From Bacteroidia bacterium (GTDB taxonomy: Bacteria > Bacteroidota > Bacteroidia > Bacteroidales > Prolixibacteraceae), in assembly GCA_025358025.1 (NCBI GenBank), contig JANYKW010000022.1, positions 1-64,000 of the forward strand: DNA of 64,000 nt, read 5' to 3'. The notes under the pieces are model-generated. The model made no database searches, was not told where the DNA came from, and saw nothing but the letters and a program-made list of their open reading frames with translations. Shown here in pieces: positions 14,947-55,773 of the stretch (the stretch's first letter is position 1; each line of letters opens with the position of its first letter). Made by a program: the position numbers and the translations under genes.

Positions 14947-14976
14947 GTGGCTTTTAATCTTTTATTTGTGATGAAA

Positions 14977-15014
14977 AGTACTTCGAGTTGTGAGTACTTC
15001 AAGTACTTCGAGTT
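14977..15014. repeat. AGTACTTCGAGT word repeat, left arm (pair 1)
   Basis: Several iterations of AGTACTTC(G/A)AG lie here, ending against the stop codon of the S23 gene. It closely matches 54950-54989 (AGTACTTCGAGTT followed by GAGTACTTC). With 15435-15459 it encloses the four-helix-bundle gene. Confidence 0.75.
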
Positions 15015-15375
15015 AGTGGTGCTTTAGCTTTGTACCAATAGAAGTAAAAAGAGCCAGCAATTCATTGGCTTCGCACATTAGTGGGGTAATTTTACCCATA
15101 TCGGGATACTTTAAATCAACGATAACCTCCAACCAATACATTGTCTCATTAGTTTCACTCTCGCATATCTTGATTTTATTTAAAAAATCGGCCTTACTCC
15201 TCGCTCTGTTAGCTTCTCTATAGTTTGCCCCAATACTGGTTCCAGATTTTGTTATTTGGTTTTTTATAACATTATTCTCGTAAGAATATGTTAAAGAAGA
15301 AGATAGATCAATAATACTGATTGCAAATTTTCTTGTCCGTATTTCCATCATCTTACCAAATTCATGATTATTCAT
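15013..15375 (-). CDS. Four-helix-bundle protein (S23 / 23S rRNA IVS-type)
   Basis: A 120-residue all-helical protein of the S23 family (TIGR02436-like). The signatures are RTRKFAISIIDLSSSL, QITKSGTSIGANYREANRARSKADF and KICESETNETMYWLEV. Family members are encoded in intervening sequences of some 23S rRNAs and, very often in Bacteroidota, as solitary genes; related folds occur as Avd in diversity-generating retroelements. No ribosomal RNA or retroelement is nearby. It is bracketed by AGTACTTC-type repeats, so it looks like cargo of a small element. Molecular function is unknown. Confidence 0.85.
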   Translation of the reverse strand: MNNHEFGKMMEIRTRKFAISIIDLSSSLTYSYENNVIKNQITKSGTSIGANYREANRARSKADFLNKIKICESETNETMYWLEVIVDLKYPDMGKITPLMCEANELLALFTSIGTKLKHH

Positions 15376-15434
15376 CTAGCCTTCAATTAAAATTAAGTAT
15401 TAAAAAAATCTCTGATAAAACGCATGTGATACCG

Positions 15435-15459
15435 GAGTCCCCAACTTGAAGTACTTCAT
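15435..15459. repeat. AGTACTTC word repeat, right arm (pair 1)
   Basis: The sequence GAGTCCCCAACTTGAAGTAC continues into the DUF2851 stop codon (15456-15458). It matches GAGTTCCCCACTCGAAGTAC at 55071-55090, in the same relative position of pair 2. Confidence 0.7.
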
Positions 15460-22841: not shown

Positions 22842-22938
22842 TTTAGCTCCAAGCTATTGGCTTTCAGCATTTAGCCCAGAAATCATTTAGCAGATCTTAA
22901 TTTTTCCCCCTCAATCCAAAATCGAAAATCGAAAATTT
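22842..22938. repeat. Intergenic word repeats before alaS stop
   Basis: The gap between alaS and the acyltransferase-like gene contains TTAGCTCCAAGCTATTGGCT and, nearer alaS, CAATCCAAAATCGAAAATCG with an internal CGAAAAT duplication. Both look like repetitive intergenic words and are unlike coding sequence. There is no clear inverted partner. Confidence 0.45.
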
Positions 22939-38438: not shown

Positions 38439-39884
38439 ATGTCAGCACCTCTCAATTTAAAAGACCATCTTCATCATCCCACGTTCGCACTTATCGGCTC
38501 AATATCGGATACAGAGGGACTGGAAACCTATGTGATAGGTGGTTTTGTCAGAGATCTCCTGATGTATCGAAAAAAAGAACATTACGACATTGACATAGTC
38601 ACTGTAGGCAGCGGTATTGCTCTTGCGAAGAAAGTTGCAGGTGCTATTAACCCAAAATTAAAGGTCACAGTCTACAAGAATTTCGGGACTGCCATGTTCC
38701 GTAACATGGATGTTGATTTTGAATTCGTAGGCACCCGGAAAGAATCATACCGATTGGATAGCCACAAACCTATCGTAGAAGGCGGTACATTGGAGGATGA
38801 TCAGAACCGGAGAGATTTTACGATGAACACCCTGGCCATCTGCCTGAATAAAGGACGCTTCGGTGATGTCATCGATCCATTCGACGGGCTGGGGGATTTG
38901 GAGGGCAAACTGATCAGAACGCCTCTTAATCCGGATATTACTTTTTCAGACGATCCGTTACGCATGATGCGAGCCATTCGCTTCGCATCTCAGCTCAACT
39001 TTAGAATTGAAAATGATACTTTTGCAGCCATAACCAAACAGGCTGACAGGATAAATATTCTTTCCAAAGAGCGGGTTACAGAAGAACTAAACAAAATTAT
39101 CCTCTCCGACAAACCGTCCATAGGTTTTAAGTTGCTCGAGACATGTGGCCTGTTGAAAATCATCCTCCCGGAGATTCAAAACTTGAAAGGCAGAGAGAGT
39201 GTCAATGGCATTTACCACAAGGATAATTTCTACCACACGCTCGAGGTCCTGGACCGTATCAGCCAAAATACAGACAATCTCTGGTTACGCTGGTCGGCAC
39301 TCTTGCATGATGTTGCCAAGCCGGTTACCAAAAGATTTTCTCCTGCACTGGGGTGGACTTTTCACGCCCACAATTTTGTTGGAGAGAAGATGGTACCTAA
39401 ACTGTTCAACCGGCTAAAACTGCCGCTTAACGAAAAGATGAAGTTTGTTCAGAAGTTGGTTCTGCTTCACATGCGCCCCATAGTCCTGTCTGAAGAGGAA
39501 GTCACAGACTCTGCCGTCAGGCGTTTACTATTTGATGCCGGAGATGATATTGAGGATCTGATGACCCTTTGCGAAGCTGACATTACCTCTAAAAACGAGG
39601 AGAAAGTGACACGTTTTTTAGCAAATTTTCAGTTGGTCCGTGAAAAACTGAAGGAAATAGAGGAGAAAGATGCCGTTCGTAATTTTCAACCTCCAGTTAC
39701 AGGTGAACTGATCATGGAGATTTTTGGCCTTCAACCGTGCAAAGAGATTGGATTAATTAAGTCGGCAATTAAAGAGGCTATTCTGGATGGAGAAATCCAT
39801 AATAACTACGAAGACGCATACCATTACATGATGGGAAAGGGAAAAGAGCTGGGACTTACTCCAGTAAAGAAGGATAATGGGTAA
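38439..39884 (+). CDS. cca: CCA-adding tRNA nucleotidyltransferase, HD domain
   Basis: About 481 residues that build or repair the tRNA 3' CCA end. The nucleotidyltransferase motif is [23 protein letters not shown] (GG..RD..DxD), followed by [11 protein letters not shown] and [18 protein letters not shown]. An HD phosphohydrolase domain ([13 protein letters not shown]...[14 protein letters not shown]) follows. I chose ATG 38439; TTG 38433 is also in frame. The last codons (KDNG) and the stop TAA are part of a GGGTAAA repeat tract, so its C-terminus is set by the repeat. tRNA-Phe here lacks an encoded CCA, consistent with need for this enzyme. Confidence 0.93.
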
Positions 39885-39910
39885 AGGATAAAGGGTAAAG
39901 GGTAAAGGAA
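39873..39910 (+). repeat. GGGTAAA tandem word repeat at a stop codon
   Basis: About five imperfect copies of GG(G/A)TAAA run from the last codons of the CCA enzyme into the gap (core GGGTAAAGGATAAAGGGTAA). The first TAA is the stop codon. The same word forms the hairpin after tRNA-Phe. Confidence 0.75.
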
Positions 39911-54934: not shown

Positions 54935-54949
54935 GAGGAAGTTGATAAA

Positions 54950-54989
54950 AGTACTTCTAGTACTTCGAGTTTGGAGTACTTCGAGTACT
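54950..54989. repeat. AGTACTTCGAGT word repeat, left arm (pair 2)
   Basis: This repeats AGTACTTC(T/G)AG and matches 14977-15014. It lies 16 nt upstream of the trmN6 start, with its inverted partner at 55071-55121. Confidence 0.75.
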
Positions 54990-55070
54990 GGAAGAGGTCG
55001 GATTTGGAGAGTATAGAATATATTTCAAACAGAAGAGAATCAGATTCGATCACAAATTGAGCAAAGCTTT

Positions 55071-55121
55071 GGAGTTCCCCACTCGAAGTACTCTAAGTAC
55101 TTGAAGTACTCGAAGTACTTG
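55071..55121. repeat. AGTACTTC word repeat, right arm (pair 2)
   Basis: It begins GAGTTCCCCACTCGAAGTAC and continues with three more AAGTACT words. It includes the stop codon (55093-55095) and the last codons of the lolD-like gene. It corresponds to the right arm of pair 1 at 15435-15459. Confidence 0.78.
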
Positions 55122-55773
55122 TTATAGTACCGTCCCGCAACTGGATCATCCTGTCTGTCATTCCGGCAAAATGATCGTCATGCGTCACTATGACAAAAGT
55201 ATGACCAAATTTTTCGCGGAGGGAAAAGAAAAGGCGGTACAGCTCTTCCTGATTCTGAGAATCCAGGTTACCGGAGGGTTCGTCCGCCAAAATAATGGAA
55301 GGATCGTTGATCAGTGCCCTTGCAATTGCTACTCGTTGCTTTTCACCACCGGAAAGCTGAGATGGTTTGTGGTGTTCACGGGGAAGCATATCCAAAATCT
55401 GCAGAAGTTCCCGTGCCCTTTTCTCGACAGCAGATTTCCTGGTTCCGGCGATATAGCCGGGGATGCAAATGTTTTCGAATGCTGTAAATTCAGGGAGTAG
55501 ATGATGGAACTGAAAAACAAATCCGATTTCCCTGTTACGAAATCTTGACAACTCTCTTTCGCCCATTTTAAACAAATCATTTCCATCAATGAATACCTTT
55601 CCTGAATCCGGTTGTATCAGTGAACCCATAATCTGTAGGAGTGTTGTTTTTCCAGCCCCGCTGGCACCCACCACAGATACGATTTCATGCTTTTCAACTT
55701 TCAGCGAAACAGCATTGAGAACCTGGAGATTTCCGTATGATTTGGTAATCTTGTTTGCTTCGAGCATAGTCAC
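55093..55773 (-). CDS. lolD: LolD-like ABC transporter ATPase
   Basis: A 226-residue ATPase of the lipoprotein-releasing/MacB type. Walker A is GASGAGKTT, the signature [15 protein letters not shown], and Walker [32 protein letters not shown] is the LolD Q-loop region. The permease partner (LolC/E) is not in the window. The C-terminal TSTSSTSST tail is encoded by an AGTACTTC repeat that also provides the stop, so the natural end is probably near LRDGTI. It should release lipoproteins from the inner membrane. Confidence 0.9.

Follow-up and report, generated by a model that had tools for sequence, protein, structure and literature searches.

The window, that is, the whole 64,000-nt stretch of DNA that was analyzed, carries on its minus strand (15013-15375) a gene for a 120-aa four-helix-bundle protein of the S23 (23S_rRNA_IVP) family, which is located between the DUF2851 and rpsO genes and is bracketed by two short repeat arms, given here without strand like the other repeats described below. 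The arm at the 3' side of the gene (14976-15014) comprises AAGTACTTCGAGTT, followed by GAGTACTTC and again AAGTACTTCGAGTT, and can be read as three AGTACTTC words; it contains the 9-nt word AGTACTTCG, which recurs throughout the genome, and its inner end is overlapped by the stop codon of the S23 open reading frame (ORF). The arm at the 5' side (15434-15456), AACTTGAAGTACTT, has the inner motif GGAGTCCCC at 15434-15442 and further words at 15443-15456, and its outer end is touched by the TGA stop codon (15456-15458) of the upstream DUF2851 gene, also encoded on the minus strand. The S23 gene is the sole ORF of at least 70 aa between the arms, with no transposase among ORFs of this size, and no rRNA genes were found in the window. 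The complementary termini of the arms comprise 14-15 nt (93%), and their inverted-repeat score of 13 and tandem score of 14.1 are both within the range of the controls. Interruptions within their words make the arms weak by generic statistics, and the significance of the pair stems from the genome-wide occurrence of its word rather than from the single pair.

In profile searches, the encoded protein scored above the curated cut-offs of both PF05635 (E 8e-19, 68.2 bits, cut-off 33.8) and TIGR02436 (E 9e-25, 87 bits, cut-off 24), and it matched the PDB entry 2rld (BT_0352 of Bacteroides thetaiotaomicron; E 6e-19), whereas no nuclease or transposase family was matched, and S23 has no recognized enzyme domain. 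The AF2 model (pLDDT 94.7) consists of four helices and resembles 2rld (TM 0.80-0.86) and also 2gsc. Avd of diversity-generating retroelements (4dwl, 8ub7, 8ube) has the same four-helix fold, and a family relation between S23 and Avd is stated in PMC10053308; however, the match to Avd is weaker than that to S23, the window protein matches PF05635 and not bAvd, and the four Pfam-named neighbors (S15, PNPase, DUF2851 and a methyltransferase) do not include a reverse transcriptase.

A second repeat pair is formed by a left arm at 54949-54989, with the words AGTACTTCT and AGTACTTCG, and a right arm at 55071-55120, with the inner motif GGAGTTCCCC at 55071-55080 and words at 55081-55120. It encloses about 80 nt, and an ABC-transporter gene (55093-55767, minus strand) runs into its right arm and ends there. 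The original prediction had placed both pairs at these positions, with an S23-family gene inside the first and none inside the second, and was correct in each of these respects. In the window, AGTACTTCGAGT had 14 matches with up to two mismatches, compared with 2.7 in shuffled sequences (sd 1.5, maximum 7), and in the whole genome there were 76 exact matches (41+35) versus 2 (1+1) for the reversed pattern; one pattern at one mismatch was left out, its control being high (142 vs 258). Clusters with at least three AGTACT words were found 27 times in the fetched stretches of the genome; AGTACT is its own complement, and the clusters were sorted by length classes, not by the presence of both arms, into one with the S23 gene, 20 gene-less clusters (80-218 nt) and six short ones (26-53 nt). 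Taken together, the word counts and the 27 clusters place both window pairs in one word family. None of the gene-less AGTACTT clusters that were examined (24 of 26) was located inside an ORF of at least 120 aa, and the 22 with both neighbors were found in 15 co-directional, four convergent and three divergent gaps. Inner motifs of the type GGACTCC, GGAGTCC, GGAGTTCC or GGAACTCC are present in the S23 element and in some gene-less ones, and also at L043, L046, L054, L055 and L058. The possibility that the gene-less pairs are plain internal deletions of the S23 element was considered and is unsupported, a GGAnTCC-type inner motif being present in 7 of the 27 clusters, the S23 element included.

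Eight S23 matches were found in the genome, and two of these are interrupted by an internal stop. That S23 genes elsewhere never lie next to such arms had been named beforehand as an observation that would speak against the element, and literally it holds for all seven other genes, none of which adjoins AGTACTTC arms; yet five of the seven are located between inverted arrays of another word (AATGAAA, TAGCTNT at two genes, ATGAGAY and AAAAGAY), and the remaining two, the decayed gene L006 and the contig-edge gene L008, have one-sided arrays (ATGCCTA and CTTTCTC-like). Therefore, the rule is an S23 gene with its own word, and not a single repeat family. Two solo arrays of 7-nt words also occur in the window. 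One (GGATAATGGGTAAAGGATAAAGGG, TAAAGGR; 39872-39908) lies in a convergent gap, over the terminus of a poly(A)-polymerase-like gene, and its word type is that of the congener S23 locus L119 and of the array beside L008. The other (22913-22936), with the word ATTTTCG on the minus strand, lies just past the stop of the alanyl-tRNA synthetase gene, and its word is that of an S23 subfamily at the congener loci L099, L103 and L112.

The same arrangement is found far beyond this genome. Tandem arrays above control were detected at 170 of 190 S23 loci from several phyla, mostly with 7-nt words and usually on both sides of the gene. Compared with flanks 850-1100 bp away (95% level), 83 of 95 loci of 28 Bacteroidales genomes (genus, family and order) and 72 of 80 loci of named genomes were positive; the 12 and 8 loci below the threshold include the window locus. 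Arrays were also present at all 15 plasmid loci examined, which are 15 of 54 plasmid matches listed and stem from cyanobacteria, Treponema, Chloroflexota, Gemmatimonadota and Bernardetia. The named loci were the 80 best-ranking among at least 592 relatives of one S23 subfamily and include Clostridia, Bacteroidota, Alcanivorax, Lentisphaeria, Fibrobacter, Verrucomicrobia, Sulfurovum and Neisseriaceae. A clear array was present on both sides at 143 of 175 loci, on one side at 29 and on neither at three. The inverted score was taken from the best inverted match of the 250 nt upstream of the gene with the 250 nt downstream. It averaged 26.8 at 92 Bacteroidales loci (L102, L116 and L135 were left out because of short flanks, and L086 and L087 were unused), versus 13.1 for mismatched flanks from different loci, 14.1 in direct comparisons and 12.6 in reversed ones, and versus a mean of 12.7 and a maximum of 20 for 47 ORFs of the window, the S23 gene among them. 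A score above 20 was reached at 62 of 93 loci, and 37 of the 92 exceeded the 99% level of the mismatched control, which shared words push upward. In the named survey, the means were 27.8 and 14.1 (mismatched) for 78 loci (without L184 and L195), 56 of them above the 95% level, and 12 of the 15 plasmid loci were above the 95% inverted-repeat control. Rfam matches were found at none of 20 S23 loci.

The arrays have a characteristic anatomy. The period of the 155 loci above the threshold is 7 in 120 cases, 8 in 25, 9 in seven and another value in three, and among the plasmid loci it is 7 in 14 and 8 in one. The arm length of period-7 arrays peaks at 32 nt (86 of 229 arms at 30-34 nt), with a second peak at 38-40 nt, which correspond to five and six words under the assumption of a 4-nt core; on this basis, among 297 arms of all periods, 112 have five words, 63 six, 27 four and 12 three. 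The strand of the word reads inward from both ends, G exceeds C in 83% of 277 arms, and the 155 elements have 113 distinct words. Ordinary slippage, by which short tandem repeats would have grown by chance beside small genes in AT-rich gaps, might explain that repeat numbers vary, with arrays of up to 29 words in this survey and differences between strains in Coxiella (PMC4990558), but it is contradicted by the inverted pairing about the gene and is a most improbable source of the 7-nt period, the five-word peak, the tie of the word to the protein lineage (see below) and the difference from the controls.

The inverted order of the arms could also mean that the element functions as an RNA hairpin, as do the intervening sequences of 23S rRNA, with arms that pair to a stem of about 30 bp, which is cut by RNase III and is itself under selection. 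A precedent is the insert in the 23S rRNA of Coxiella, which contains an S23 ORF, a 28-bp terminal stem and tandem heptamers (GACAGAT) in strain-variable number, with RNase III cleavage at the start of the heptamer array, and Leptospira and Brucella are also named for S23-bearing intervening sequences (PMC4990558). The orientation of the genes is partly in line with this explanation: among 125 of 175 elements (50 without two clear arms or callable neighbors were left out), S23 shares the orientation of both neighbors in 91 cases, opposes both in 14 and lies in convergent gaps in 18 and in divergent gaps in two, so that within co-directional gaps 91 of 105 genes are in the sense of the operon (binomial p 5e-15), a bias that concerns orientation inside these gaps and not co-directionality itself. 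However, the 14 antisense copies and the 18 in convergent gaps do not fit, and word variants in the two arms of 29 elements agreed no better in register (92 of 193, 0.477) than off register (361 of 740, 0.488), which rules out hairpin-templated matching of the two arms. The arms therefore share a vocabulary and not an order, which favors a reader of words over a paired stem; base-pairing of the arms is probably not what is maintained, and a role as an RNA hairpin is unlikely. The S23 elements resemble the 23S rRNA inserts in having an S23 ORF between complementary termini, with heptamers beside the ORF in Coxiella, but differ from them in their location outside of rRNA in the window and at the 20 loci searched, in the presence of gene-less copies in the same genome, in arms that are word arrays without matching in register, and in the strong constraint on their genes, whereas the Coxiella ORF is described as being in reductive evolution (PMC4990558).

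The placement of the elements is narrow. At 87 of 109 loci, the co-directional upstream gene stops between -17 and +13 nt of the outer arm end, and at 52 of these its stop codon lies inside the arm. The downstream arm ends close to the next co-directional start codon, at a median distance of 8 nt before it. On cyanobacterial plasmids (L378, L384 and L382), S23 elements are located between cas2 and cas1, between cas6 and cas4, and between genes for ribonucleotide reductase subunits.

Fifteen pairs of S23 genes have a pS of 0.65-0.86 and a pN/pS of only 0.09-0.21, and this low ratio at high synonymous divergence indicates that the protein is kept by selection. The best pair within one genome among the fetched loci is 88% identical, and no recent jump was caught. 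Word similarity and protein identity are correlated between genomes (Mantel r 0.32, 4005 pairs; the largest value in 2000 permutations was 0.074), and a cross-arm score of at least 20 was reached by 58% of 92 pairs above 60% identity versus 7% of pairs with 20-30%. Nevertheless, many pairs with 50-80% protein identity differ in their word, so that similarity alone does not reveal the code, and an all-or-none correspondence of word and protein was rejected. Overall, the word tracks the protein at high identity, but its turnover is fast.

This turnover can be followed at two orthologous sites in eight genomes of the genus (G000-G007, with G000 being the window genome). Between DUF2851 and rpsO, the S23 element occurs at one place in G000, G004, G001 and G007 (in G007 it is split over two contigs, the ends of which share about 50 identical bases). 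Gene-less remnants are found in two genomes, a single array in G005 and a 30-nt palindromic remnant in G006; the most distant genome, G002, has nothing, and G003 is rearranged. The words are alike in both arms, i.e., AGTACTTCR in G000, AGTACTTAR in G004, AGTACTTAG in G007 and mainly AGTGCCTAR in G001. The S23 protein of G001 is the most diverged (0.58-0.62 versus 0.69-0.74 among the other three), whereas in a tree built from the DUF2851 and ABC-transporter proteins G001 pairs with G004 (support 0.59), and this pair is joined by G000 (0.89). In the gap between the ABC-transporter and methyltransferase genes, the gene-less pair (54949-55120 in the window) is present in G000, G001, G003, G004, G005 and G007, decayed in G006 and absent from G002, and both arms again have words of the same type (AGTACTTCG in G000, AGTACTTAG in G004, mainly AGTGCCTAR in G001, G003, G005 and G007). 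The gene-less pair is thus old, and changes of its words affect both arms jointly. For the proposal that the two window pairs are a loaded and an empty form of one element, this means that its first half stands, since the 27 clusters and the DUF2851-rpsO locus show arms that define one small element with or without the S23 gene, but that the second pair is no fresh empty copy, being at the same site in six of eight genomes and decayed in a seventh. The variation between orthologous gaps that had been proposed as a check was therefore found, as gain or loss of the element within the genus; neither a strain-level empty site nor a target duplication was identified in this genus-level comparison.

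Genome-wide counts in 12 genomes reveal the same differences in word usage. AGTACTTNNAGTACTT has 91 matches in G000, 121 in G004, 18 in G006, 5 in G007 and none in the other eight (reversed control 0-1), and AGTGCCTARAGT has 281 in G001, 220 in G007, 155 in G004, 110 in G003, 52 in G005, 18 in G006, 17 in G000, 12 in G011, one in G009 and none in the others (reversed control 0-6 across the 12 genomes). For GACTNGGRGACTNGG, the counts are 590 in G004, 52 in G007, 31 in G003, 24 in G006, 15 in G001, one in G005 and zero in the others (control 0-1). The TAGC word TAGCTNTTAGCTNTTAGC has 77 matches in G000 versus 3 for the control, and is at or near the control elsewhere, e.g., 18 versus 12 in G007 and 3 versus 10 in G001. 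Two genomes do not comply with a strict rule that a word needs its gene: G007 has AGTACTT words at its S23 locus, yet 220 AGTGCC and only 5 AGTACTT matches genome-wide, and G006 has 18 AGTACTT matches, yet none of its three S23 genes belongs to that subfamily.

A third site is the serC-serA gap of Prevotella-type genomes, in which elements with the word CATTGAC (L194, L196, L211) or close forms of it (L197, L202) are located, and CATTGAC-type arms persist there despite the pS of 0.65-0.86. A motif search over 700 nt detected no S23 at the 30 top-ranking serC loci, which were taken from 281 matching genomes of Bacteroidales, and in 10 of these 30 gene-free loci the serC gene ends with CAT TAA or CAT TGA. 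This is a hint that the word may be a copy of its target site, which is weakened by L208, where the word at the same site is AGTTAGG and the S23 protein is 55-59% identical to the others.

TRAP forms a ring that recognizes 11 spaced triplets in RNA. S23 could be an RNA-binding protein of this kind in a regulatory network of the host, in which arrays behind stop codons control intercistronic expression or mRNA decay and mobility is secondary or absent. The strong purifying selection on S23, the retention of the element at DUF2851-rpsO and serC-serA over large synonymous divergence, and the placement at stop codons would all be expected from such a role. However, a genome may have several S23 genes with different words, S23 presence is patchy (32 of 41 genomes), elements are gained or lost within a genus, and they are inserted between cas, ribonucleotide reductase and transporter genes that have no common theme; host regulation as the primary function is therefore rather improbable.

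The closest solved relatives, 2rld and 2gsc, both have five chains in the crystal, and the S23 protein of X. campestris (2gsc) is reported to be a homopentamer (PMC4990558). On balance, it seems probable that S23 pentamers read arrays of five words and that the gene-less pairs are satellites recognized in trans, in a selfish, REPtron-like spread. In this reading, an S23 element combines the gene of a four-helix-bundle protein, from a pentameric family, with a flanking inverted pair of arrays of a word of 7 nt (8 or 9 in some lineages) that is private to the lineage of the protein. The protein ring would read the array with one word per subunit, which would be the reason for the typical five words per arm, and it would read the same word in trans at gene-less pairs elsewhere. 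Elements occupy tight intergenic gaps, mostly from the stop codon of the preceding gene onward, and would therefore be carried in operons at little cost. The word drifts with time, and the arms and satellites of one genome drift together, as they would if they answer to one reader. Spread would be selfish, as REP elements depend on RAYT, and cutting and copying would be left to host enzymes. The bracketing, the inverted order, the length of the words and their number per arm, the placement and orientation, the constraint on the protein, its link to the word and the joint drift at two orthologous sites are observed directly; from these we infer the binding of the word by S23, the reading of one word per protomer, the action in trans, the selfish spread, the mobility and the strand involved.

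REPtrons consist of a RAYT transposase gene flanked by REP palindromes, are accompanied by many gene-less repeat pairs, and show co-variation of repeat and protein. S23 elements share the single gene between inverted repeats, the gene-less pairs and the repeat-protein co-variation, but differ in that the window S23 protein has no nuclease or transposase match and that the repeats are arrays of 7- to 9-nt words instead of one palindrome. The likeness to TRAP would be confined to the proposed logic of a ring that reads evenly spaced words, one per subunit, and we know of no homology between TRAP and S23.

Arrays of heptamers have been described previously: GGGAATC arrays in Xanthomonas, mostly of four units and with 70-75 inverted pairs per genome, and GGGGA(T/C)T arrays in Nostoc, few of which are paired (PMC4692102), as well as TAACTGA arrays in Beggiatoaceae, cyanobacteria and Bacteroidetes, with 169 direct sets and one inverted set in Beggiatoaceae (PMC4679880). 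Like the arms of S23 elements, these are 7-nt words in largely intergenic positions; unlike them, the arrays of Nostoc and Beggiatoaceae are mostly unpaired. G-quadruplexes or regulation have been proposed as their role (PMC4692102, PMC4679880), and S23 is not mentioned in either main text. The published arrays may be satellites of S23 elements, and X. campestris does possess an S23 protein (2gsc). The S23 insert of 23S rRNA with its heptamers and the scattered heptamer arrays are already in print; in the open-licence literature, no paper that links S23 genes to such arrays genome-wide, beyond the Coxiella insert, was found.

A wider generalization can be offered only tentatively: S23 proteins might be ring readers of changeable taste, each homopentamer recognizing on one strand five copies of its own word of 7-9 nt, and S23 genes with their arrays might be widespread minimal mobile elements without a dedicated nuclease, with satellites that include the heptamer arrays of Xanthomonas, cyanobacteria, Beggiatoaceae and Bacteroidota, and with a concerted rewriting of words in arms and satellites that follows changes in the specificity of the protein and leads to dialects of genomes. 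A structure of S23 has been available since 2006 (2gsc), and catalogs of heptamer arrays exist for several bacteria; if the two belong together, the function of S23 and the ownership of the arrays would both come down to one binding question. If true, S23 would make up a whole family of natural proteins that read sequences, with 113 different words in 155 elements, and the system formed by the element, whether mobile or regulatory, would be much smaller than an insertion sequence.

Several minor observations concern the surroundings of S23 genes. Several S23 genes can be clustered, at distances that range from a few kb to tens of kb, e.g., three within 3.2 kb at G016:C31 51914-55084, and further cases on G020:C3 and G009:C3. 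At the loci L375 and L377 on Nostoc plasmids, XisI or XisH/XisI genes are located downstream of S23, and Xis genes have been noted in cyanobacteria with TAACTGA arrays (PMC4679880). At L189 (Defluviitaleaceae), the inverted match is far longer (score 48) and is not a plain word array.
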